IMG/VR virus record: IMGVR_UViG_3300037189_006861
Coordinates: 1-26,218 of that record
DNA length: 26,218 nt
Origin: a virus
Reading direction: 5' to 3' (one strand)
This document shows positions 494 through 25,624 of the stretch, piece by piece. Positions within the stretch are counted from its first letter, which is position 1, and each line of letters opens with the position of its first letter. Both the position numbers and the translations under genes were made by a program. The notes beneath the pieces were generated by a model. That model ran no database searches. It saw only the letters and a list, made by a program, of their open reading frames with translations, and was not told the DNA's origin.

Positions 494-1142
494 CGCCAAA
501 CATTTTTTTCGCAATCATTTCCCCTTTAATGTACCGATCCTCGGGATCATGCCCGCAAAGGTCAAGGAAATGTTCCTTGTTTGCGATACTTGAAAATGTC
601 ATGACAATGTAGTTCTCGCCTTGGCTAACGTTTTTTGCCTTGGACGCGGCCTTTGCCGCCTTAATGTCTTCAATGCTATGTTTTACGCCGGCGACATAAT
701 TGTCCTCTTCGCGGGCCTCAATATCAGCATCAATGCCAATTATCGAAAGATCGTAATCGGAAAATCCGGTTGCGTCAAGATCAAGATTAGGCAAAAGTTC
801 TTTCAAAATCTCCATGTCATACTCACCCTGCATCGACGGGTTATTCAATGCAATGTTTAACTCTTGTTCCCGTTTCAAGTCCAAATTGACAACAGCAACG
901 GTCAGTTCATATTCCGGGTTGCCTTCAAGCACATCAAGTTGCGACAAACGCTGATGACCGCCAACAAGGTTGCCTGTCTTTTTATTCCATACAAGGGTTT
1001 CAACAAGGCCATGCGTTTTTAGGCTTTTGCGCAGGGCTTTTTGTTCGGCGTCGCCAATCTTGCGCGGATTGTATGGCGCGTTCTTAATCTTCCCACGGCT
1101 TATAGTAGCCGGCTCAAACTTTTGAAATTTACTGATCGCCAT
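438..1142 (-). CDS. ParB/IbrB-like nucleotide-binding domain protein
   Basis: 234 residues. The N-terminal third has the ParB N-domain pattern: a PYNPRKIG segment near residue 24, a helix (LRKSLKTHGLVETLVW) and the GGHQR signature, the phosphate-binding loop of the ParB/Srx fold (CTP or ATP in characterised members). The C-terminal end is strongly acidic (ETDEEGDETGDNA). There is no ParA partner and no obvious ParB HTH, so a partitioning role is unlikely. It starts inside the last 14 bases of the PP-loop gene, implying coupled translation. A ParB-like protein next to a PAPS-reductase-like protein is the IbrB/IbrA arrangement seen in enterobacteria and phages, whose biochemistry is unsettled. 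The domain call is firm; the function is inference. Confidence 0.75.
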   Translation of the reverse strand: MAISKFQKFEPATISRGKIKNAPYNPRKIGDAEQKALRKSLKTHGLVETLVWNKKTGNLVGGHQRLSQLDVLEGNPEYELTVAVVNLDLKREQELNIALNNPSMQGEYDMEILKELLPNLDLDATGFSDYDLSIIGIDADIEAREEDNYVAGVKHSIEDIKAAKAASKAKNVSQGENYIVMTFSSIANKEHFLDLCGHDPEDRYIKGEMIAKKMFGDDYKEETDEEGDETGDNA

Positions 1143-1803
1143 CGTCGTCGAGTATTAGGGTTTCTGCAAACGGGAACGCATCAATCAGACGTTTGTAATC
1201 TCGAGGCGCATTTTTTTTGCACCATCGCAAAACGTCCTCTGATATTGTCACTCCGCTGCTGTTCTTCTTATTGTAAGCCACCGGCGTCGGTAACTTATGC
1301 AGTTTAATGTAATTGATGCAGTCTTGCTTTTTCCATTCGGCCAATGGGTGCGCTCGTCTCGCTTTTAGATCTATTGCGTTCATGAACAATGTTCCCATCA
1401 TCAATCGTCGATTAAGGCTGTCAGCCTTTTTCATACCGGTGATGATCCAATCGCATCCAAAGTCTTGCCGGGCCTTTGTCTCAATATCGCCTAATTTAAA
1501 TTTCGGCACTTCGGCCCCATGGAACCGGTAATAATTGTCGTTGATGTATTGCGATAATTCCCAATGAGGATATTTACGAAATTCAACGCCATACTTTTTT
1601 TGTGCGAAATGCAAATATTTTTCGACATGCTCGAGGCCGTCAACAAAATACATAAACGCAAGGTGTACCTTGAAATGTTTGGTCAATAGATCCAACAAGA
1701 TCAAACTATCCTTGCCGCCCGAATAGAACAAAATGACGGCATCCGTTTGAGTCTTTAAGAACTCAATGCAAGATGCCGTCGATTTCATTGGTGTGGCCTT
1801 CAT
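1129..1803 (-). CDS. PP-loop ATPase, PAPS-reductase-like (IbrA-like)
   Basis: 224 residues. The ATP-pyrophosphatase P-loop SGGKDS is at residues 28-33 after a hydrophobic strand (AVILFY), followed by LILLDLLTKHF, as in the adenine-nucleotide alpha-hydrolase superfamily. Downstream segments (GCDWIITGMKKADS, RAHPLAEWKKQDCINYI) match the PAPS-reductase/IbrA/DndC-like group. The ECGLH-type catalytic Cys motif of true PAPS reductases is absent at the C-terminus, so sulfate reduction is unlikely. ATP-dependent nucleotide or base modification is more plausible but unproven. The start at 1803 shares one base with the stop of the H1-like gene (TAATG), and its end overlaps the ParB-like gene by 14 bases. 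The three genes therefore look translated as a unit. Confidence 0.78.
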   Translation of the reverse strand: MKATPMKSTASCIEFLKTQTDAVILFYSGGKDSLILLDLLTKHFKVHLAFMYFVDGLEHVEKYLHFAQKKYGVEFRKYPHWELSQYINDNYYRFHGAEVPKFKLGDIETKARQDFGCDWIITGMKKADSLNRRLMMGTLFMNAIDLKARRAHPLAEWKKQDCINYIKLHKLPTPVAYNKKNSSGVTISEDVLRWCKKNAPRDYKRLIDAFPFAETLILDDDGDQ

Positions 1804-9317: not shown

Positions 9318-9533
9318 TTATATGCGCGCGCGTTTCAGATCTTTCGACATCAATTTTATCCCTGCCTTTATATCCTCTTTGTCTTGCGGGCTGAAATCTA
9401 TGGGCTTACCATTCCCGTCGATGCCTCGCATCTTTTGGTAAAATCTTTTCACGTTTGGTGCGTACCGGCTGAAAAACTGACGCGCAGGCACTAATTCAAA
9501 AAAATCATCCTTACTCAATGCTTTTGTTTTCAT
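9318..9533 (-). CDS. Hypothetical small protein with possible near-leaderless mRNA
   Basis: 71 residues from the ATG at 9533. The five extra upstream codons would run into the promoter box. Not recognised. It is basic and helical (MKTKALSKDDFFELVPARQF, RYAPNVKRFYQKMRGIDG) and ends in DLKRARI. The second half (FSPQDKEDIKAGIKLM) may form a helix-turn-helix, but weakly. It sits alone between the late terminators and the HTH gene. The -7 box TACTTTTG ends only four bases before its ATG, so the transcript may have almost no leader. Confidence 0.58.
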   Translation of the reverse strand: MKTKALSKDDFFELVPARQFFSRYAPNVKRFYQKMRGIDGNGKPIDFSPQDKEDIKAGIKLMSKDLKRARI

Positions 9534-9537
9534 GCTG

Positions 9538-9545
9538 CAAAAGTA
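9538..9545 (-). promoter_or_regulatory. -7 box (TACTTTTG) immediately before a start codon
   Basis: An exact TAnnTTTG match on the minus strand, identical to the box before the ASCH gene. No good TTG lies at the usual distance upstream, where the second late terminator's U-run sits. The ATG follows after four bases. Confidence 0.45.
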
Positions 9546-9562
9546 CAAACTATTGAACTAAT

Positions 9563-9590
9563 AAAAAAGCCCGACGTGGAAACGTCAGGC
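9563..9590 (-). terminator. Late-operon terminator, distal copy
   Basis: On the minus strand GCCTGACGT and ACGTCGGGC pair over nine positions (one U-G) around loop TTCC, followed by six T. It is almost the same as the copy at 9632-9659. The wobble fixes the minus direction. Confidence 0.88.
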
Positions 9591-9631
9591 CAATTGATTG
9601 TGTGTATCAATAACGTGGACCATAAAGATAC

Positions 9632-9659
9632 AAAAAAGCCCGACGTAGAAACGTCAGGC
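9632..9659 (-). terminator. Late-operon terminator, proximal copy
   Basis: The same nine-pair stem as the distal copy (GCCTGACGT with ACGTCGGGC), loop TTCT, then six T on the minus strand. It lies 43 bases past the endolysin stop. The 41 bases between the copies hold no gene I can support. Confidence 0.9.
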
Positions 9660-9701
9660 TCCAAAACAACTGCTGCATGAGAAGAACAGATGTTTCGATA
9701 A

Positions 9702-11449: not shown

Positions 11450-11866
11450 TTAATTCGATGTTGTAGTGCCGGATGCGGCTTGGCGAGCGGCTTGACGGGT
11501 TGCTGCGGCTGCGCGCTGCTGAATACGCAATGCTTTCAGCGTTAAACGCAAAGCGGTGTCAGGATGATCGCCTTTGTTGACATACTGAATGTAATCATCG
11601 CCGGTAAAATCAATGTTTCCACTTGCGACAACAACTCCGGTGCTGTCTGAAATTTCATAGTACACGCGCGCGACGGTTTTGTAATCGTCAAAAACGCATA
11701 CAAGATCAATGTCGGACGCATCAAACTGCTGACCGTTTTTCCAAATTTTGAACTCTTTGATTGGTTGCTTTTCCCGTACCGGTTGGGTTGGTTTGGTGCT
11801 GTCAGCCTGCGCAAAGGTGATCAACGCAAAAATGGCGAAGATCATTGTCAATCCTGTTTTTTTCAT
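11450..11866 (-). CDS. Exported small protein after the tail fibre
   Basis: 138 residues from the ATG at 11866, 17 bases past the fibre stop. A type I signal peptide is clear: MKKTG, a hydrophobic core (LTMIFAIFALITFA), then Gln and ADSTKPTQ. The mature part has a beta-rich region (FKIWKNGQQFDASDIDLVCV, ARVYYEISDSTGVVVASGNI) and ends in an Ala/Arg helix (QQRAAAATRQAARQAA). Function unknown. It lies between the fibre and the lysis genes, where fibre chaperones or receptor-blocking proteins are common, but the export signal is unexpected for either a virion part or an intracellular chaperone. Confidence 0.65.
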   Translation of the reverse strand: MKKTGLTMIFAIFALITFAQADSTKPTQPVREKQPIKEFKIWKNGQQFDASDIDLVCVFDDYKTVARVYYEISDSTGVVVASGNIDFTGDDYIQYVNKGDHPDTALRLTLKALRIQQRAAAATRQAARQAASGTTTSN

Positions 11867-11883
11867 TTGCTTTTTGGTTTTGA

Positions 11884-14800
11884 TTATTGAGGAATGTTGT
11901 AAACTACCCATGTAAGTGTTAATGGAAAAATGACGTGATTTGTCCCGCCTGTTATTGCCGACGCGCTGACCGTACCAATTCTTACTTGCACGTTCCCGCC
12001 CGGATCCACGCGCGCGACCTTTACCCCGGTGTATTCTGCTGCGCCGGTAAAACGAACGTTGGATGATGTGTAATACGTTTCAGTACCAACATATCCGGGC
12101 AATTCAAAATATACGGTTGTTTTAGGAGCGTATGCTGACGGAACATTTGCAACGGTCTGCCATGAACCGGTAGTAAAGGACGACGTTGTGCGATAAACAG
12201 CAATCTGCATTGTGGCCGTCGCTTCATTTGTTGTTGTACTCTGTACGACGTTGATAAAATTATGATTCAAATTTCGTGTGCTGTCCTTGACAAATGTCCA
12301 ACCGGATGAAATGGTATTGACGTCGGTAGTATAACTTACCTCACTTCCCGGCACCGCGGCTTTTTTTACGACGCCGGTAGCATCAACGTACAGCATGTTA
12401 ATCCCTGTTGCTGTGCTGTCCACGGTCCTGATGCGCGCTTTACCGTTTACGTCAAGTCTTTCCGTTGGTGATGTGGTATTAATCCCAACAAGGCCCGTGC
12501 TGTCAATCTCCATGCTCACCGTGCTATTTGTGCCGAATTGCAGGGGCCTGTTGTATCCGCTCCCGACGACCGCCGCGTACTGTGTGGATCCGGTCAGGAT
12601 TGATCCGCCCGTTGAACTTTCGGCACCGTACAACAGCCAGGCATTTGAACTGTAAATCTGTGCAGCGATGTCGGACGTTCCAGATCTGACAATATTGTGG
12701 CCGATGGATTCCGATGATGTGACATCAATTTTCCCAGCGACGCGGACGTTTCCGCTTGACTGAATTTTGTAATCTCCGGCGTCGGTGGGTGATCCTGAAT
12801 GACCGACAAACAATTCCGAACCTATTAATGTCATGCTTTCGGTCGTACCTCCGGCGAATGATAAACGACCATTTGATAACCAAAAATTCGATTCACCTCC
12901 CCCGAAATTTCGAAATCTCAATGCCGCTAAACCTTGATATGTAACTGGATTAATTGTAAAATTTAATTGATTGTCAATTGTCCTTCTAAACCATATACTG
13001 CTACTACTATCTGTTGCCTCTTGAATATTTGTTGTTTTGAATATCCATCCGGGCAGTGTTGAATTTCCCGTTGAACGGAATGTACCAGAAACGTCAAGTT
13101 TATTAGATGGGTTGTTCGTTCCAATACCAAAATTCCCAGCTGAAAACCTTGCCTGTTCTGCAGATGCAATTCTAAAAACCAGTGAATTCCCCGTTCCCGT
13201 TTCAATTCGCGATTCAGTACCCGAACCGTAAAAATCAAAGGACTTTACACCTCCATTTTGTAACTGAATCGCGCCTAATGTAGTTCCGTTGACTGTCAGG
13301 GTTGTTGTACCTGCGCCAAAATTTACAGGGCTTTGCGTACCGATCCCCACGTTCCCCAGGGCATCAATTCGCATGCGATCTGCGGGGGTTCCACTTACTG
13401 CCCCTTTGAAAGACAATGCATCTGTAAATCCTAATTCAACCAACCCGGACCCGTCTCTGTATCTTCTAAAATATCCGTTTGTCCCTCCACTTTCAGACAA
13501 TAAAAACTGCATTATAGTTGAGGATGATGATGTCCCCGCATTTGACACCGTTATTGATGTCGCTGATGTTTGATCTTTTTGAACATGCAGATTAAACGAT
13601 GGGCTGTTATTGCCCATGCCAACATTCCCGTTTGACGCAATTCTCATATTGATTACCCCGGCATTTGCAAACGACATCGCGCCGCCGGATACTTGTATGA
13701 AATTGCTGCCTGATTGTGCATCAAAATCAACGACACCCCCGGTTGAATTTATTCGAGTTCCTCTGACATTCCCGTTGACGTCTAATTTTACTGCGGGACT
13801 TGTGGTACCAATTCCAACGTTCCCGGATCCATCAATACGCATGCGTTCGGTTGCACCCGTCCCGAAAACCAAAGGAAAATTCGCGTCGGCATTGTATATC
13901 TCAAACGCGGATCCACCGCTCACATGAAACAATTGATCCGCGTACACATCTCCGCTTATGCCGGCAGAATTTGCCCGGCTTCGTGTATATATATTGCGGA
14001 AACGTGTTGATGATCCGGACGCTATATTATTAGCCGCTAAAGACGCTGTTCCAACTGCATCAATTGGATATGATGGGGTAATTGTTCCAAATCCTACATT
14101 TCCATTACCGTAAATAGTCATTGCCTCGGTCAGCGGTGACGATGCGTTTGGCTTGTAAAAAAAGGATAACCCGTGCGAATTATTCGACCCCGTGTTGTTG
14201 GTGGCAATTTGGGCTTGATCATAATTAGCAATATTCCCGCCTCCGGATTTTCCACGAAACAAAATTGCGGTACCCGCGCCCACTTGTTCGGCGGCCGTTG
14301 CTTCCATATCAACAATCAATCCAACGTTGATAGAATTTGTACTTGCCCCCGTACCGATTACATGCAGTTTAGATGATGGGGACGCCGTACCGATGCCGAC
14401 GTTGCCCGAAGACGTTGCAAAATATGCGTCGTTGTCAGATTGCATATTACCCGCCACATGCAATCGAGCAAGTGGAGACAATGTATTGATCCCAACAAAA
14501 CCGTCATTGCCGATCATCATGCGGTCCTGTACGCCGGATGCTCCGGTTGGCGTTGTTCTAAATGTAAGGTATGATCCTCGATTTGTCGATGACCATGCCT
14601 CCGTTGAATATGCCTCTATTCGGGCCTGTGCCGGATAATTTACACTACCAAAACCGAGCGAGAATAAACGATTTGCCGATGCCGTAGGATCGGTTGTACT
14701 TGCCATCGCGACACCGCCCCCGCCTATCGGATTAGTAAACAAAGTATTAAACCCGGCCGTTGTATTTACACGTAAATCATTGTTTATTCGCGCCGTACCG

Positions 14801-15729
14801 TTTACGTCGAATTGGAAACCCGCGTCGGTTGGCGTTGGTCCAATAAATACACGACCATTGTTAAACAATCTGATTCTTTCGCCGGAGGATGTTCCATTAA
14901 AATAAAATCGCAATTCTTTGTTTACAGACCCGGTTTGCGATCCATAAAAATATGTGGCTGTATTATCATTTTCAATAGAAAATTCCGCATTTGCAGTTGT
15001 TGATGAACCTTGATAAATTAAAGATGATCCTGTCTCTCTTATTTTGCTATCCCCCAAAGTATTTGCACCGGTCCATTTAGGCACATAATTCGTCGTCCCG
15101 CTTCCACCCGGGAACGCCGTTGCGCTTGCCTTCTTGATGACGCCCGTTGCGTCGGCATACAATACGTTCATGGCCGAGGCCGTGCTGTCAATTGTACGCA
15201 CCCGGGCGCGACCGTTTACGTCCAATAATTCGGAAGGAGTAACGGTGCCTATACCTAATCTGCCATCTGATGTAAAACGTCCGACTTCAGTCAGACCGCC
15301 AATAGTTGTCACAGCATTGGAAACGCTTGTGCTTACACGAAAACTCAACCCTCCAAGATAATGCCCGCTCGGGTTTTGCCTGATGCCGGTCACAGCACTT
15401 GTCAATGTAAAATTTGCATCGTCAGCGAAAACCATTCCAATAGCACGTTCACCGTTATATGATGACAGGCCCGACCTCTGTATTCTAAACGCCTCTTCAA
15501 GTGGGGAATCAGCAAATACGGTTGACAAATGCAATTTTGCGGATGGGTTTGTTAACCCAATGCCAACGTTCCCGGCGGGTGTTATAGTTAAATTATTATT
15601 TTGTGTTCCCCCACTTGTAGTGGTTCTAAATATCATGGCCCCCCCATTTGTTACGTTTGCCAAATATGAATCATTACTTGAATTATATATTCTCAATTGC
15701 CTTGATGTGCCTTGATATAAATCAATCAA
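11884..15729 (-). CDS. Tail fibre, downstream part of a reading frame cut by an in-frame TAA
   Basis: 1281 codons counted from a TTG at 15729, but the frame is open back to the TAA at 15754-15756 and is the same frame as the gene before it. No ATG lies near the start, so this is probably the C-terminal part of one fibre of about 1870 residues. About twelve modules of the form NVGIGT-SP-KLDVNG are spread along it; two larger units recur with variations (STASAMNVLYADATGVIKKA and STATGINMLYVDATGVVKKA). The last 170 residues are unrelated to the modules (GWTFVKDSTRNLNHNFINVV to LTLTWVVYNIPQ) and are the likely receptor-binding tip. No S74-type chaperone domain is seen. Host range would depend on this protein. 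Confidence 0.85.
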   Translation of the reverse strand: MIDLYQGTSRQLRIYNSSNDSYLANVTNGGAMIFRTTTSGGTQNNNLTITPAGNVGIGLTNPSAKLHLSTVFADSPLEEAFRIQRSGLSSYNGERAIGMVFADDANFTLTSAVTGIRQNPSGHYLGGLSFRVSTSVSNAVTTIGGLTEVGRFTSDGRLGIGTVTPSELLDVNGRARVRTIDSTASAMNVLYADATGVIKKASATAFPGGSGTTNYVPKWTGANTLGDSKIRETGSSLIYQGSSTTANAEFSIENDNTATYFYGSQTGSVNKELRFYFNGTSSGERIRLFNNGRVFIGPTPTDAGFQFDVNGTARINNDLRVNTTAGFNTLFTNPIGGGGVAMASTTDPTASANRLFSLGFGSVNYPAQARIEAYSTEAWSSTNRGSYLTFRTTPTGASGVQDRMMIGNDGFVGINTLSPLARLHVAGNMQSDNDAYFATSSGNVGIGTASPSSKLHVIGTGASTNSINVGLIVDMEATAAEQVGAGTAILFRGKSGGGNIANYDQAQIATNNTGSNNSHGLSFFYKPNASSPLTEAMTIYGNGNVGFGTITPSYPIDAVGTASLAANNIASGSSTRFRNIYTRSRANSAGISGDVYADQLFHVSGGSAFEIYNADANFPLVFGTGATERMRIDGSGNVGIGTTSPAVKLDVNGNVRGTRINSTGGVVDFDAQSGSNFIQVSGGAMSFANAGVINMRIASNGNVGMGNNSPSFNLHVQKDQTSATSITVSNAGTSSSSTIMQFLLSESGGTNGYFRRYRDGSGLVELGFTDALSFKGAVSGTPADRMRIDALGNVGIGTQSPVNFGAGTTTLTVNGTTLGAIQLQNGGVKSFDFYGSGTESRIETGTGNSLVFRIASAEQARFSAGNFGIGTNNPSNKLDVSGTFRSTGNSTLPGWIFKTTNIQEATDSSSSIWFRRTIDNQLNFTINPVTYQGLAALRFRNFGGGESNFWLSNGRLSFAGGTTESMTLIGSELFVGHSGSPTDAGDYKIQSSGNVRVAGKIDVTSSESIGHNIVRSGTSDIAAQIYSSNAWLLYGAESSTGGSILTGSTQYAAVVGSGYNRPLQFGTNSTVSMEIDSTGLVGINTTSPTERLDVNGKARIRTVDSTATGINMLYVDATGVVKKAAVPGSEVSYTTDVNTISSGWTFVKDSTRNLNHNFINVVQSTTTNEATATMQIAVYRTTSSFTTGSWQTVANVPSAYAPKTTVYFELPGYVGTETYYTSSNVRFTGAAEYTGVKVARVDPGGNVQVRIGTVSASAITGGTNHVIFPLTLTWVVYNIPQ

Positions 15730-15753
15730 ACCTGAAACACCGCTTCCACCTAC

Positions 15754-15756
15754 TTA
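15754..15756 (-). other. In-frame TAA splitting the tail-fibre reading frame
   Basis: The frame reads GFKTL, stop, VGGSGVSGLIDLYQG with no shift before or after. The flanks read as continuous fibre sequence. A change from TAT or TAC (Tyr) would give FKTLYVGGSG. Whether it is readthrough, a mutation or a sequence error cannot be told here. Confidence 0.85.
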
Positions 15757-17493
15757 CAAAGTTTTGAAACCACTTTGCCCCGCTGCTAATAAACCTATAC
15801 CTACATCCCCTGAACTCGTTGCAAAGTTTGCGCCGTTGACCGTTCGCAGCGTTCCATTTATATCAAACTGATACCCCGCGTCGGTATTCGTATTCACTCC
15901 GACGCGTCCGTTTGCGAATATTCGCATGCGCTCAATTTCGCTTGTGCTAAATAAAATGGGATATGCTTGAAGGTGATAAACATTGAGCGAATAAGGTGCG
16001 CCGGTAGAAAGAGCGGATCCGGTTGAATTTTCTAATCCAATAAAACCCGAACCGCCCGAATTTTGAGCATGATACAAAGCATATTCTGTTCCGGTAGTTG
16101 GCTGTACTCTTATTCGAGGGTTTGACCCTGTAACGTCCAATCTGTAACTTGGGGATGCCGTGCCTATGCCTACATTTCCGGAGGCGTCTATACGCATGCG
16201 TTCGGACCCCGCGACACGCATGGACATTACAGGGGAACCAACACCGGCGGTAGCCTCAATATATCCAACGCCGGATTCGGCCCCTAATTGGATTCGATTT
16301 GTATTGCCGGTTGTGGTTTCTATATAACGTATTCCGACATCTGTGGAAGGGCCGCGCATGTCAAACCGTGCCGAAGGTGATGCGGTTCCAAGGCCGACGT
16401 AAGTACCATTATCGAACAACAATGAATTTCCCAAAGTACTTGTCGCGGTCCATTTTGGGACATAGTTCAATGTCCCGGATCCACCGACCTTTGTATTAGC
16501 CAACGTGGCGACGCTATCTATCCCTTTCTGCACACGCGCGCGCGTAGCAATTGCGGCTGTGTCCGCAAGCAACGATTGACCGCTTTTTATCAAACCATAT
16601 CCGGCGGCCCGGACGTATGGTCCAAGCATTGATGCGGTATCTGTTGTTTTTACCGGAGTGTAACCGAGTACAGATGCAATCGTTCTGTTCTTCCACAGAC
16701 GCGTTGTGCTGTCATAAGCAATTACCTGATTGTTGAGGCTATCGGTAATCAGTACGTCATGCAATTCCTCGAGTTCAAACCCATTTTGCACATGCACAAA
16801 AATTTCGCCGTTGTTGGCATTGACGCGCGTCACTACTCCCAAATAAACTAAATGGGCAGGCGCAACCGGTTTGTTTGCTATTCCATACAGCAAGTTTCCA
16901 TTTGTTCCTAACCATACAGCATCTCCGACCGTTGCTCCTATTGTATTTAATCCGCTTAAACGACCTTGCGTTATTACATACCCTTGCCCATTTTGGGAGA
17001 GATTTTGATAAAGTAATCCAAGCGTTTTACTTGATTGCCCGTCCGATATGTTTGATGCTTTTGCAACGAGTACGTTTGTCCCATTGGCACCGCTCACATA
17101 TACGGCCTGCCCTTTATTTATTGCTACGGTTGCTTTTACATACTCCCTAACCTCTGTCGTAAAATTGTCTATCCACGTAACGTCGTATGATGTGTCGCTG
17201 TCCTTTGCAAGCAATTGGCCTGTCGTACCGCCGGCCGGGATGCCATGTGCGCCCGCTGTTATTGGTTGCCATTTGACCGGTGTGCGGACGTATAACGTGT
17301 CGTTCAAAACCACCAAAGATCCCGGCAATTTGTTTTGCACGGTATCCGTAGGCATGACGATTGCAGCCTTTGCTTTCAGCCTGTTATAGGAAAAACCGTA
17401 CCCGTTAACCATGGTGTAACGCGTCGTGTCATTTTGAGCGGACGCGCTGACGATGATTGCAAATAGGTTGACGAGTAATATCAGTTTTTTCAT
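15754..17493 (-). CDS. Tail fibre, N-terminal part with signal peptide
   Basis: 579 residues, ATGA-coupled to the LysM-like gene. It begins with what looks like a Sec signal peptide (MKKLILLVNLFAIIVSASAQ). A globular attachment-type region follows (GTTGQLLAKDSDTSYDVTWI, VSGANGTNVLVAKASNI, YVITQGRLSGLNTIGATVGD), similar to N-terminal domains of Bacteroidota phage fibres. A linker with NYVPKWTATSTLGNSLLF comes next, and then fibre modules (YVGLGTASPSARFDMRG, NVGIGTASPSYRLDVTG, RVGVNTNTDAGYQFDINGTL). The fourth module is broken by the TAA after GQSGFKTL. Alone it would be a short fibre lacking its receptor tip. A signal peptide on a virion fibre is unusual; the N-terminus may instead serve as a hydrophobic attachment segment. 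Confidence 0.82.
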   Translation of the reverse strand: MKKLILLVNLFAIIVSASAQNDTTRYTMVNGYGFSYNRLKAKAAIVMPTDTVQNKLPGSLVVLNDTLYVRTPVKWQPITAGAHGIPAGGTTGQLLAKDSDTSYDVTWIDNFTTEVREYVKATVAINKGQAVYVSGANGTNVLVAKASNISDGQSSKTLGLLYQNLSQNGQGYVITQGRLSGLNTIGATVGDAVWLGTNGNLLYGIANKPVAPAHLVYLGVVTRVNANNGEIFVHVQNGFELEELHDVLITDSLNNQVIAYDSTTRLWKNRTIASVLGYTPVKTTDTASMLGPYVRAAGYGLIKSGQSLLADTAAIATRARVQKGIDSVATLANTKVGGSGTLNYVPKWTATSTLGNSLLFDNGTYVGLGTASPSARFDMRGPSTDVGIRYIETTTGNTNRIQLGAESGVGYIEATAGVGSPVMSMRVAGSERMRIDASGNVGIGTASPSYRLDVTGSNPRIRVQPTTGTEYALYHAQNSGGSGFIGLENSTGSALSTGAPYSLNVYHLQAYPILFSTSEIERMRIFANGRVGVNTNTDAGYQFDINGTLRTVNGANFATSSGDVGIGLLAAGQSGFKTL

Positions 17494-18086
17494 TGGGAAA
17501 CTATTTTATTGTAAAGTATCGAGAGCGTTTGTCCATAATCGGCGTATGTGTTATTGATCAACGTCAGTACACCGATCGATTTGTTCCACACGTATTGCGC
17601 GCCGACTTGACCTTCCGGAATCAATGGCTTAATCTCGAGTTCAATTTGAATGATGTCGCAGCCGGCAAGGTTGTTCCCGTTTATGTCGAGCGGGGTAATT
17701 ACGGTTGTGGAATCGGCCCCGCTTGTCCATGTGGTATTTAGCGTCACTTTGTAAGATGTAGAAACCGGCGCGGACGGCGGCGTATATGGTATTGCCGGGC
17801 CGTTTGGTATGTTCTGTATCGGTCCACGTTCAACCGTGTAATAAACATTCCCGAGGCCCGACATAGATGTGGAGTAGTAAACATTTGACGCTGCAAAAGC
17901 CGCATTGACTAACTGATCGACAACGAGCGTATCATCCCAAACAAAGGTTTGACCGCTGTAAATGTTCTCATTAAGGCCGTTGATCCCATTGTCTTGCATC
18001 AATTTGTACAAGTAATCAAGCGTCCCGTATGTTTGGAGGCATACGTCATAAATTGATTGACCCGCTATCGCCTTAAATATTCGCAT
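17490..18086 (-). CDS. LysM-like baseplate/tail protein
   Basis: 198 residues from the ATG at 18086, which overlaps the gp25-like stop by 14 bases; the longer frame needs a TTG. The first 55 residues have a LysM-type pattern (FKAIAGQSIYDVCLQTYGTL, then LMQDNGINGLNENIYSGQTF), as in tail protein X and gp53-like baseplate proteins. A Pro-rich hinge (PNGPAIPYTPPSAPVSTSY) leads to a beta-rich C-terminal domain (YKVTLNTTWTSGADSTTVIT to SILYNKIVSQ). Located between the wedge protein and the fibre, it may join the fibre to the baseplate. It stands where baseplate J and I genes are usually found. Confidence 0.65.
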   Translation of the reverse strand: MRIFKAIAGQSIYDVCLQTYGTLDYLYKLMQDNGINGLNENIYSGQTFVWDDTLVVDQLVNAAFAASNVYYSTSMSGLGNVYYTVERGPIQNIPNGPAIPYTPPSAPVSTSYKVTLNTTWTSGADSTTVITPLDINGNNLAGCDIIQIELEIKPLIPEGQVGAQYVWNKSIGVLTLINNTYADYGQTLSILYNKIVSQ

Positions 18087-18384
18087 TGGGTACAGCGTTA
18101 GGGTTGACAATTAATTGACCGGACGCATCAATGCTCACAGCCGGATTGCTCACTTTATATCCGTCGCTTGTTAATTGAATTTGAATTGCGCGTTTGAGTG
18201 TTTGATTTTGTCCCGCGCTGTTTATGTATTGGAAAACGCCTACGCCGTCAGCGGGGTACTCTTTCCACCATCCCGGAAACGCGTTGATTGTGTCGGCGAT
18301 ATGTTGCGTATCTGATTCGGTAATGGCAAAATCGCCATCCACGATGTACACGTCATTGTTTTGCAGCGCGATGTCTTGGTTCAT
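18073..18384 (-). CDS. gp25-like baseplate wedge protein
   Basis: 103 residues, starting at TAATG on the spike gene's stop. The N-terminus DVYIVDGDFAITESDTQHIA and the following INAFPGWWKEYPADGVGVFQ fit the small gp25/gpW-like wedge proteins that nucleate sheath assembly in contractile tails. The rest (LKRAIQIQLTSDGYKVSNPA) is the usual strand-helix end. Context is strong: spike and hub genes lie immediately upstream. The family is short and divergent, so sequence alone would not be decisive. Confidence 0.68.
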   Translation of the reverse strand: MNQDIALQNNDVYIVDGDFAITESDTQHIADTINAFPGWWKEYPADGVGVFQYINSAGQNQTLKRAIQIQLTSDGYKVSNPAVSIDASGQLIVNPNAVPNANI

Positions 18385-19007: not shown

Positions 19008-20242
19008 CAACTTATTGGTTTTCCATTGGCATCAAGCCGGGTTATAAGATAATCCAATTCAATTTCCTGACGCAACCCATCAACGCCGCCGGTGTATGTC
19101 ACCCCTTTTACTTTGTATCGTCCATTTCTTTCAGGCAAAATCGCATCGAGTATATCGACATTATCGCCGTGCTGTACAAACGGGATTCCAAACGTCGTGA
19201 ATTTGCCTTTTAGGCCGGTGTAATAATATTTCTTCAATTCGGCCTCGGCCAATTTTGCTAACTCGGATGTAGTGGTCGCCCCAAGGAAATGCAGGGTACG
19301 CCTTTCTCCCCCCGTATTCGGTGGCAAGGGCCTGTCCTTGGATCCGACCACTACTTCCGGTTCTTTTGTATTGTTTCTGAAGGTGACAAGGACTTCAAGA
19401 CGCGTTTTTTTCGTTTTCGGCTGCCCGTCTTTTGTCTTCTTCCCTGTCTGCTCTTCGATTGTATTTGTGGCAATTGCGGACAATACGGTATCGTCGCGCC
19501 GCTTATATTCAAGTTGATCTGAAATAATGTTTTGCTGAAACTTGAACACCTTTTGTCCGCTGTTTACAGCGTCTTGCTCAATGTACTTGAAGGCCCCACA
19601 ACGCAGCACAGATCCACGGAAATACGCTTCAAAATGATAGTCTTTGCGTAGCCGGGCAAGCACTTCCGCAATCGTTTCATTTTGTGTTACAAAATCTCCA
19701 ATTACCGTTTGCTCTGTTTGATCAACCGTAAATGAATGGCCCGAGTTTTTTATCATTTCGGCAAGCATAGATTGCACGGAATATTTGCTGCCGGCGAAAA
19801 AACCATTGTTTCCCCCAACGGCTTGATGTTGTTTGAGCGCATACATGTTGTCCTGTATTTCAAGGACAAACGGCTTTTTGGACGTCACCGATGATATGTA
19901 ACCTTCAAATATTGTTTTGAGCGGGCTTACTTCATTCCCGCGATTGTCATACCGTGCATAGCCCCATTCAATTTTTACTTTGTCTCCCAACAGAAACGTT
20001 GGCACCGTTTCAGAAAAACCGCCGACGTTTACGTTTGTCCCGCCGAGTGAATAACGCCGGCCGCTTTTGTCGATCACGTACACGTTTTTGGGCAACGTAA
20101 TTGTACCGCTGTCCGTCAAGTTTTGCCATGTCGATGTAAATTCAAACGAATGACAAAATTTGTAAATGATAACGCCATTACGCCCGGGATAATCTCCCGT
20201 TGGATGCTGCGTAAACGTTATTTGTGTAAGGACCCGGTACAT
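19007..20242 (-). CDS. Baseplate hub protein, gpD (late control D)-like
   Basis: 411 residues, TAATG-coupled to the gene before. The order of domains fits gpD/gp27-type hubs: a beta domain with FEFTSTWQNLTDSGTITLPK and GDKVKIEWGYARYD, a region with KYSVQSMLAEMIKNSGHSFT and TIAEVLARLRKDYHFEAYFR, a charged loop (EEQTGKKTKDGQPKTKKTRL) and the C-terminal barrel (GIPFVQHGDNVDILDAILPE, GRYKVKGVTYTGGVDG). The trimeric hub links the tail tube to the spike. The Lys-rich loop near residue 270 is probably an exposed insertion. Its place between the tape-measure region and the spike is the standard order in contractile phages. Confidence 0.82.
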   Translation of the reverse strand: MYRVLTQITFTQHPTGDYPGRNGVIIYKFCHSFEFTSTWQNLTDSGTITLPKNVYVIDKSGRRYSLGGTNVNVGGFSETVPTFLLGDKVKIEWGYARYDNRGNEVSPLKTIFEGYISSVTSKKPFVLEIQDNMYALKQHQAVGGNNGFFAGSKYSVQSMLAEMIKNSGHSFTVDQTEQTVIGDFVTQNETIAEVLARLRKDYHFEAYFRGSVLRCGAFKYIEQDAVNSGQKVFKFQQNIISDQLEYKRRDDTVLSAIATNTIEEQTGKKTKDGQPKTKKTRLEVLVTFRNNTKEPEVVVGSKDRPLPPNTGGERRTLHFLGATTTSELAKLAEAELKKYYYTGLKGKFTTFGIPFVQHGDNVDILDAILPERNGRYKVKGVTYTGGVDGLRQEIELDYLITRLDANGKPIS

Positions 20243-20856
20243 TATTGAATTTGCAATTCGAGCGGTTCGTCTGAAATAGCATTGATTGAAAAATCTTGCC
20301 GGCTTATTCCCCCGGCGACTTGCGGCATTGAATAATCCTCGACAACAACATTGTAAATGCCCATGCCGTTAAGAAAACGGGAAACTACCGGGATTGGAAC
20401 CGGGGCTTCGCACATGCGTTGCACAGAAAGTGATTCAGCCTCCGGATATTGGCCGTTTTGCCCGGCAATAATACCATTGATCGATATTTGGTAGTCATCC
20501 TTCGAGATGTATTCTTTCACGGTACCGTTCCGGCCCTGTATCTGCGTTTTAACGATGATCGACGGCCGGGATACAGAACACAATACCGTTTGCAACCTCA
20601 CTTCGTCTGTGGTTATTTGACGTCCCTGCGCAAAATCTGTGTAGGTAACAGATTGGAATGTCAGATCAATGACAACAGGCGTACCGAGCGCAGATTTGTA
20701 TAATTCCGGATCGCGATCATCAGCCTGATTGACTTTCCCGTCATACGGATTATCGCGTACTGCGAGCGGCTTAATGCCGGAAACATTGTACGTGCGAATG
20801 AGTGCCGACAATGGAACGGCTGCAATTACGACGGCTTTATCAACTGCTTTTATCAT
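20242..20856 (-). CDS. Tail/baseplate protein between tape measure and hub (DUF6046-like)
   Basis: 204 residues with ATGA coupling to the tape measure. Beta-rich, with KPLAVRDNPYDGKVNQADDR, VVIDLTFQSVTYTDFAQGRQ, a middle segment KEYISKDDYQISINGIIAGQ and the end VEDYSMPQVAGGISRQDFSI. From memory this resembles DUF6046, a family next to tape-measure genes in Bacteroidota contractile phages; its role is probably equivalent to the DNA-circulation or tube-initiator protein that joins tube and baseplate. The family name is moderately sure, the structural role is inferred from order. Confidence 0.62.
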   Translation of the reverse strand: MIKAVDKAVVIAAVPLSALIRTYNVSGIKPLAVRDNPYDGKVNQADDRDPELYKSALGTPVVIDLTFQSVTYTDFAQGRQITTDEVRLQTVLCSVSRPSIIVKTQIQGRNGTVKEYISKDDYQISINGIIAGQNGQYPEAESLSVQRMCEAPVPIPVVSRFLNGMGIYNVVVEDYSMPQVAGGISRQDFSINAISDEPLELQIQ

Positions 20857-22421
20857 TGTCCCGCGATTAATTGACTATCATTCGTTGCGTTCACCATGGC
20901 CTGTGCAACCATTTCGCGGACCTTTGCCGCGCCCTCCTGAATATTTGTCGTGGCAATTTTGAAATCCTTGATCAAAGATCCAATATTGACGGTAATTGTG
21001 ACGCTCTTCGCGCCCTGCGCTCCCTTTGTCTCGTTTTTGGGATCCATTGCCGGCATTACCGCTTTTTTACCGGCGGCACCGACAGGCAAAGCCCCGCCTT
21101 TTACTCCCGGCGCAGCCACGGTTTTTTTGGATTGATCCTTTGCAAAATCAGCCATGCCTTCATCATAGCCTTCCTTGAATCCTTGGGCGAGACGTTTGCC
21201 CGCATCAACCATGGCCCCGGCCGATTGCTTGAACCCTTCCACAACCATGCCGGCGTCGAGCGTCATAACGCCTTTGATGACTTTCCACACCCCTTCAAAG
21301 GCATCGACAACAAGCGCGGCCCACGCCTTGATCACGCCCCATACTCCCCACAGAACGGCCCTGAACGTACCAAATGAATTGTAGGCATACACTACGGCCC
21401 CAACGAGGAGGCCGAGGCCCGTGATGATGATGCCGATAGGATTGGCGTTCATGGCGACGTTCAAAGCCCATTGTGCGGCCGTCAATAGTCCTGTGTACAG
21501 CGCGCCCTGACCGATCGTAAATAGATATACTTGGTATGCGGCGGTAGCAATTCCAATTGTCAACGCTGTTGCGGCAATCACGTTTTTATTTTCCATGATC
21601 CAATTCCACGCCGAGCGCATGACATCAACAAACGATAACAGGCCCGTGATGATTGCATCGATCGCCGGCTTCAGGTCGTTGAACATTTGTACCGAGAATT
21701 GGAATACAGCATCACCGAGGTTGGAAATACGAACAGACGTATTCTGCGCCATATTGGCAAGACCGTTTGCATAGATGCCGCCTTCGTCCGCTGCTCGTGC
21801 AAGGGCCATTGTCAAAGCATCGTAGGAAACTTCCATGTCTTTGACTTTTTCAATTGGCTCTCCCGTTGCGTCTGCAAGCACTTTGTAAATGTTGACGCCG
21901 GCATACGCAAACTGCTTTATATCCATCGCGGTTGCCTTGCCTGTGTTTTTGATCTGCTGCATGTTTACAACCATGCGCTTCAATTCATCATCCCCGCCGC
22001 CGGTTGCCGCAATAGCATTGGCGAGATTGAGAACGTCAGTACGTGCATCTTTTGCACCTACTCCGGCCGAGATCAATGCCTTGTTTGCTTCAAGTAAACC
22101 CTCAAATGCAAATGGAGTTTTGACGGCATCCTCCATGGTATTGTTGATCACCTCTTGCGCGGCGGCCTTGTCTTTCAGGAGTGTTGTCAGGCCGGTCAGC
22201 GCGTTTTCAACTTGTGTTCCGGCTGCGATCATCTTTTGACCAAAGGCAGCAACGGCGGCGGCTCCGAACGCAATACCCACGGCCGAGGCAAGATTATTCG
22301 CGGTGCCTTGCGCACGCTTCATCTTATCCTCGAACTTTACGACCGAATCTTCGGCCTGTTTGATCTTCCCGCTTAATAGGTCACGAAGCGAGAGGGTATA
22401 TTGTACTTGTTCGTTCGCCAT
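20853..22421 (-). CDS. Tail tape measure protein
   Basis: 522 residues. After a coiled-coil start (GKIKQAEDSVVKFEDKMKRA) comes the conserved tape-measure domain, about residues 80-215: NALTGLTTLLKDKAAAQEVI, FAFEGLLEANKALISAGVGA, NMQQIKNTGKATAMDIKQFA, NLANMAQNTSVRISNLGDAV-like order. Hydrophobic helices at about 285-375 (ATALTIGIATAAYQVYLFTI, PIGIIITGLGLLVGAVVYAY) are typical of the part that enters the host membrane. By the rule of about 1.5 angstrom per residue the tail would be near 80 nm, short for a myophage. It starts two bases after the frameshift extension gene. Confidence 0.88.
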   Translation of the reverse strand: MANEQVQYTLSLRDLLSGKIKQAEDSVVKFEDKMKRAQGTANNLASAVGIAFGAAAVAAFGQKMIAAGTQVENALTGLTTLLKDKAAAQEVINNTMEDAVKTPFAFEGLLEANKALISAGVGAKDARTDVLNLANAIAATGGGDDELKRMVVNMQQIKNTGKATAMDIKQFAYAGVNIYKVLADATGEPIEKVKDMEVSYDALTMALARAADEGGIYANGLANMAQNTSVRISNLGDAVFQFSVQMFNDLKPAIDAIITGLLSFVDVMRSAWNWIMENKNVIAATALTIGIATAAYQVYLFTIGQGALYTGLLTAAQWALNVAMNANPIGIIITGLGLLVGAVVYAYNSFGTFRAVLWGVWGVIKAWAALVVDAFEGVWKVIKGVMTLDAGMVVEGFKQSAGAMVDAGKRLAQGFKEGYDEGMADFAKDQSKKTVAAPGVKGGALPVGAAGKKAVMPAMDPKNETKGAQGAKSVTITVNIGSLIKDFKIATTNIQEGAAKVREMVAQAMVNATNDSQLIAGQ

Positions 22422-25195: not shown

Positions 25196-25624
25196 TTATT
25201 GTACGACGCGACTTTCCTCAATCCACTTGGTGCCGTTGAATCTAAATGTAATTACAGCAACAAGACCGGAAGATAGTGTAGCGGTACCCGCAGATTGCCA
25301 ATTAGTGCCGGTAAATTTTACCTTGTCACCTGAAGTTCCGGAAACCATCAGTACAACGCGGTCGCCATAATAGGAATTGGTAACCGTAGGTGATTTGAAT
25401 GTGATAGAATCGAGCGCGGCGACTTTGTACAACGTCTCCCATGCGTTCGGGGCAACGGTAACGCTGTCCGCACCGGCTGCATCGGTCACGCTGACAAGTT
25501 TGTATGTCAATACGCGTCCGGTATTGTCCGTGTTCTTTGCGGTACCAAACCTTGGGGATGTGCTTTGTGCATTTACAGCAACAAAGGCAAAAATGAAGGC
25601 GAATAATGCGATCAGATTTTTCAT
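25196..25624 (-). CDS. Exported beta-rich protein next to the capsid gene
   Basis: 142 residues with a clean signal peptide (MKNLIALFAFIFAFVAVNAQ) and a mature part made of Ser/Thr/Val-rich strands (KLVSVTDAAGADSVTVAPNA, DSITFKSPTVTNSYYGDRVV, GTSGDKVKFTGTNWQSAGTA) ending KWIEESRVVQ. Mature beta content looks like a capsid decoration or fibre-tip protein. The position right after the capsid gene fits decoration, but the export signal does not, since heads assemble in the cytoplasm. A surface or secreted role in the infected host is the alternative. Confidence 0.68.
   Translation of the reverse strand: MKNLIALFAFIFAFVAVNAQSTSPRFGTAKNTDNTGRVLTYKLVSVTDAAGADSVTVAPNAWETLYKVAALDSITFKSPTVTNSYYGDRVVLMVSGTSGDKVKFTGTNWQSAGTATLSSGLVAVITFRFNGTKWIEESRVVQ

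Follow-up and report, generated by a model that had tools for sequence, protein, structure and literature searches.

A single in-frame TAA in a modular tail-fibre gene of a contractile-tailed phage, most likely a recent nonsense mutation or a consensus error

Introduction

The splitting of a phage fibre gene by a nonsense codon is an ordinary event. In the kayvirus 812K1/420, the tail-fibre complex gene orf119 is split by a premature stop and the RNase H gene by an in-frame nonsense mutation; the fibre split results from a 77-bp deletion in a laboratory-selected host-range mutant (PMC6445280). A long fibre frame is also broken up under the standard code in a code-15 crAss-like phage, whose fibre is read through TAG, a codon reassigned throughout the genome, with a suppressor tRNA and peptide proof (PMC9523058). 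Stop codon readthrough in bacteria is rarest at UAA (PMC5289835).

The fibre gene described here lies in a 26,218-base virus record, analysed over its whole length (the window). As in the kayvirus, a premature stop divides one gene into two ORFs in one genome while the relatives are intact, and the interruption is in-frame like that of the kayvirus RNase H gene. In contrast to the kayvirus fibre split, it consists of one codon in an assembled virus contig without a known phenotype. The likeness to the crAss-like fibre is confined to the broken long frame, whereas the window has one TAA, no tRNA and TAA as a normal stop.

Results

One fibre frame with one internal stop

Read on the minus strand from 17493 to 11884, the frame spans 1,870 codons and contains a single internal stop, a TAA at 15756-15754, which leaves parts of 579 and 1,289 residues. 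The features of the frame are as follows.

15757..17493, minus strand: first part of the fibre, 579 codons, 61 kDa, with a signal-peptide-like N-terminus, the conserved N-terminal ~290 residues and the first VGIG modules
15754..15756, minus strand: in-frame TAA within a fibre module, 12 codons after GDVGIG
11887..15753, minus strand: second part of the fibre, 1,289 codons, 134 kDa, the same frame continued, with a mosaic of VGIG modules and a C-terminal part that is conserved in the relative L002
11884..11886, minus strand: terminal TAA of the frame; the next gene starts at 11911 and overlaps

The sequence runs ...GQSGFKTL before the TAA and VGGSGVSG after it, and a random frame of the same base composition would stay open for 1,289 codons with a chance of ~1e-30. 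The other two frames of the post-stop stretch contain 68 and 77 stops. The reading frame resumes directly after the TAA, so a frameshift is not needed and was rejected as the cause of the split. The first ATG past the stop lies 40 codons downstream (15636), with TTG codons at +9, +20 and +31 as the sole candidates ahead of it. The original prediction of a single frame split by one TAA, with no shift and no ATG near the resumption, thus holds.

Both parts match the tail-fibre families PHROG 9942 and 18345 by profile (phrog_9942, 5.5e-11 for the first part and 7.7e-39 for the second), placing the gene among the VGIG-module tail fibres, from which it differs in being split by a stop. Its position downstream of contractile-tail baseplate genes is that of a VGIG fibre; in transcription order the window encodes a sheath (DUF2586), a tape measure, a baseplate hub and then the fibre. 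Other genes encode an endolysin, RecT-like and RecE-like recombination proteins, a primosomal protein and the terminase small subunit. The tape measure (20853-22421, minus strand) shows ~46% amino acid identity to the relatives, compared with ~75-85% for its neighbours. A PAPS-reductase-like gene (1129-1803, minus strand) adjoins a ParB-like gene and the terminase small subunit gene. The peptide PDVSTSGFF occurs twice in a frame at 9530-9700, between the endolysin gene and its neighbour; this suggests that the DNA there, which is probably non-coding, carries a short direct repeat.

The fibre N-terminus (17434-17493, minus strand) resembles a signal peptide of the Bacteroidota type, MKKLILLVNLFAIIVSASAQ followed by NDTT, and a similar start is present in the syntenic fibres L002, L003, L164 and L165. 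Such N-termini are rare in the remaining fibres: a crude rule picked out 2 of 96, both of them syntenic ones. Two more window genes have similar N-termini: 25196-25624 (minus strand), between the sheath and head genes, and 11450-11911 (minus strand), just after the fibre. Signal-peptide-like N-termini are unexpected on virion proteins of a tailed phage, and their conservation at the fibre start is odder than the stop. This protein style suggests that the host is probably a member of the Bacteroidota.

Uninterrupted fibres in syntenic relatives

The tail and lysis genes of the window align at ~65-75% DNA identity with three syntenic contigs (L002; L003/L163; L013/L162). Two of these, L003 and L013, have almost the same sequence, give identical matches and were counted as one independent observation. 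In all of them the fibre is a single uninterrupted ORF, of 1,695 residues in L002 and 1,474 residues in L003/L163 and L013/L162. Fibre alignments cross the stop position in-frame, with one stop in the window, for L002 (window 16482-13327) and for L003 (window 16653-14746). None of the three relatives has two separate fibre genes of which the second starts at the boundary, the arrangement that would have spoken for distinct genes in the original prediction.

The N-terminal 290 residues of the fibre are ~75-80% identical between the window and the relatives. Over residues 1560-1869 the identity to L002 is ~60-75%, and the region between is mosaic. The dN of residues 1560-1869 against L002 is 0.29 with a saturated dS of 1.87, and judged by these rates purifying selection has acted on this C-terminal part in the lineage leading to L002. 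The other window genes match the relatives without frameshift.

A stretch of 192 nt within the fibre (15047-15238, minus strand) has 87% DNA identity to L002, compared with 66-80% over most of the aligned DNA, and from this pattern a recent module exchange is likely. The phage also encodes the RecT- and RecE-like proteins.

Among the fibre frames of the fetched loci, a same-frame split between two fibre parts was found nowhere else, either in a strict scan of 56 long segments or in a loose scan of 124 frames; four other pairs in the loose scan were unrelated frames or adjacent genes. An exact pattern of the junction with the stop codon left open had no match in other viral contigs, whether to the same phage or to the junction, and searches with the post-stop sequence found no relative among viral contigs and genome contigs. 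Phage records yielded distant matches of less than 60% identity, none of them to the junction. A degenerate DNA pattern for GFK[TA]LxVGG matched unrelated genes only. The ancestral codon is thus unseen, because these searches found no intact copy of the same phage.

Position of the stop in a fibre module

Local alignments were used around the stop, since the modules are mosaic and a global fibre alignment is unreliable there. The stop sits just within a repeated VGIG...KLxVxG module. The relatives have a canonical module start at the site, GNVGIGTTSPGWKLTVRG or GNVGIGTTSPTAKLSVPG, while the window has GDVGIGLLAAGQSGFKTL, the stop and then VGGSG, with a spacer that exceeds the canonical length by a few residues. 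The canonical module start of the relatives places the TAA within a module rather than at the end of a gene.

No close relative was found for the module that follows the stop, so the ancestral sense codon can be inferred by analogy with other modules only. At 138 module starts in related fibres, residue x of KLxVxG is Asp in 45, His in 29, Glu in 15, Ser in 11, Thr in 10 and Tyr in 1. A tyrosine codon (TAT or TAC), originally proposed as the best-fitting ancestor, is thus unsupported, with the limit that the comparison with these modules is by analogy and the window module is non-canonical.

The two parts of the frame show only a moderate correlation in codon usage (RSCU r 0.65; GC3 0.45 and 0.41), as expected of a mosaic gene, and this was not counted as an argument. 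An origin of the split from a DGR or a duplicated module was rejected, as the window has no direct repeats of at least 50 nt and the fibre has short module repeats only.

Discussion

The most likely explanation is that a single modular tail-fibre gene has recently acquired a nonsense point mutation, or that its consensus sequence is in error. Frame continuity, the intact single ORFs of the relatives, the normal use of TAA elsewhere and the lack of other damage support it, and a real nonsense mutation is considered probable, though well short of certain. The original prediction offered mutation, readthrough or error; its interrupted single gene is upheld by relatives that are continuous through the site, while readthrough and the tyrosine codon are not supported.

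The second part of the fibre bears on the age of the change. There is no second stop in its 1,289 codons, and 3.9% of single substitutions there would create one, which limits the neutral substitutions to ~77 (2% of sites, 95%). Three readings fit this bound: a recent change, continued translation of the post-stop part, or a stop that is not real. We infer that the change is real and recent.

The main alternative is that one base of the metagenome-assembled contig is wrong, through a consensus or assembly error or the collapse of strain variants, with the gene of the phage itself intact. An error of this kind would be indistinguishable in the sequence from a mutation. One base would suffice in such an assembled record, the alignable stretch shared with L002 and L162 ends 37 nt short of the site, and strain variants could merge in the AT-rich surroundings (28% GC in the 60 nt just downstream). 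However, the window genes with homologues in the relatives show no further frame damage and the codon has no long homopolymer. An error is rather unlikely, yet the most serious of the alternatives.

Programmed readthrough or suppression of the stop would yield fibres of two lengths, one of 61 kDa and one of 195 kDa. The frame past the stop is intact and still encodes fibre sequence, and the +4 base is G, compared with U as the strongest context (PMC5289835). However, UAA is the least leaky stop in bacteria (PMC5289835), and the 123 nt that begin at the stop have no better predicted folding than shuffled sequences (z 0.05), arguing against a stimulatory RNA structure. A tRNA was detected neither in the window nor in five related records, in a scan of which 14 control genomes were positive; the window has no Rfam match either. 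Both the window and these records may be incomplete, and the host may supply a suppressor. The stop cuts through a module rather than following a complete tip, and the interruption is absent from the syntenic relatives (L002, L003 and L013) and unseen in the other fibres scanned. With no positive evidence for the two fibre lengths once suggested, readthrough is very improbable. It is very doubtful that UAA readthrough or host suppression in this lineage yields minority long fibres and virions with two fibre lengths.

A split gene making two proteins would need reinitiation at TTG 15729 or ATG 15636 and a second part that assembles in trans into the fibre. The TTG at +9 and the ATG at +40 are present; however, no relative has a gene start at the boundary and reinitiation would begin within a module, which makes this reading slightly more improbable still than readthrough.

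Recoding of TAA as sense, for which the single internal fibre codon is the sole argument, is practically excluded, because TAA ends 13 of the 20 window genes (TGA the other 7), as the original prediction of normal stops held, several of these TAA ends coincide with protein ends in the relatives (sheath, 20242-20856, 18073-18384), and neither genome-wide reassignment nor a suppressor tRNA was found. The genome-wide code change of the crAss-like phage (PMC9523058) does not apply to this phage.

A nonsense mutation in the single modular fibre gene of this contractile-tailed phage would end translation after 579 residues. The tail-proximal N-terminal base and the first modules would be made, and the remaining shaft and the conserved C-terminal part would be omitted. 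Unless the stop is suppressed, a phage with the TAA-bearing genome would be impaired in adsorption, or would be a minority or host-range variant.

In annotation, both ORFs should be entered as a single interrupted fibre gene. As it stands, the interruption has little importance, both fibre nonsense variants and, in assembled phage contigs, single-base errors being ordinary. If the TAA is fixed in the reads and the long fibre occurs in virions, the phage would offer a rare example of a virion protein extended by UAA readthrough.
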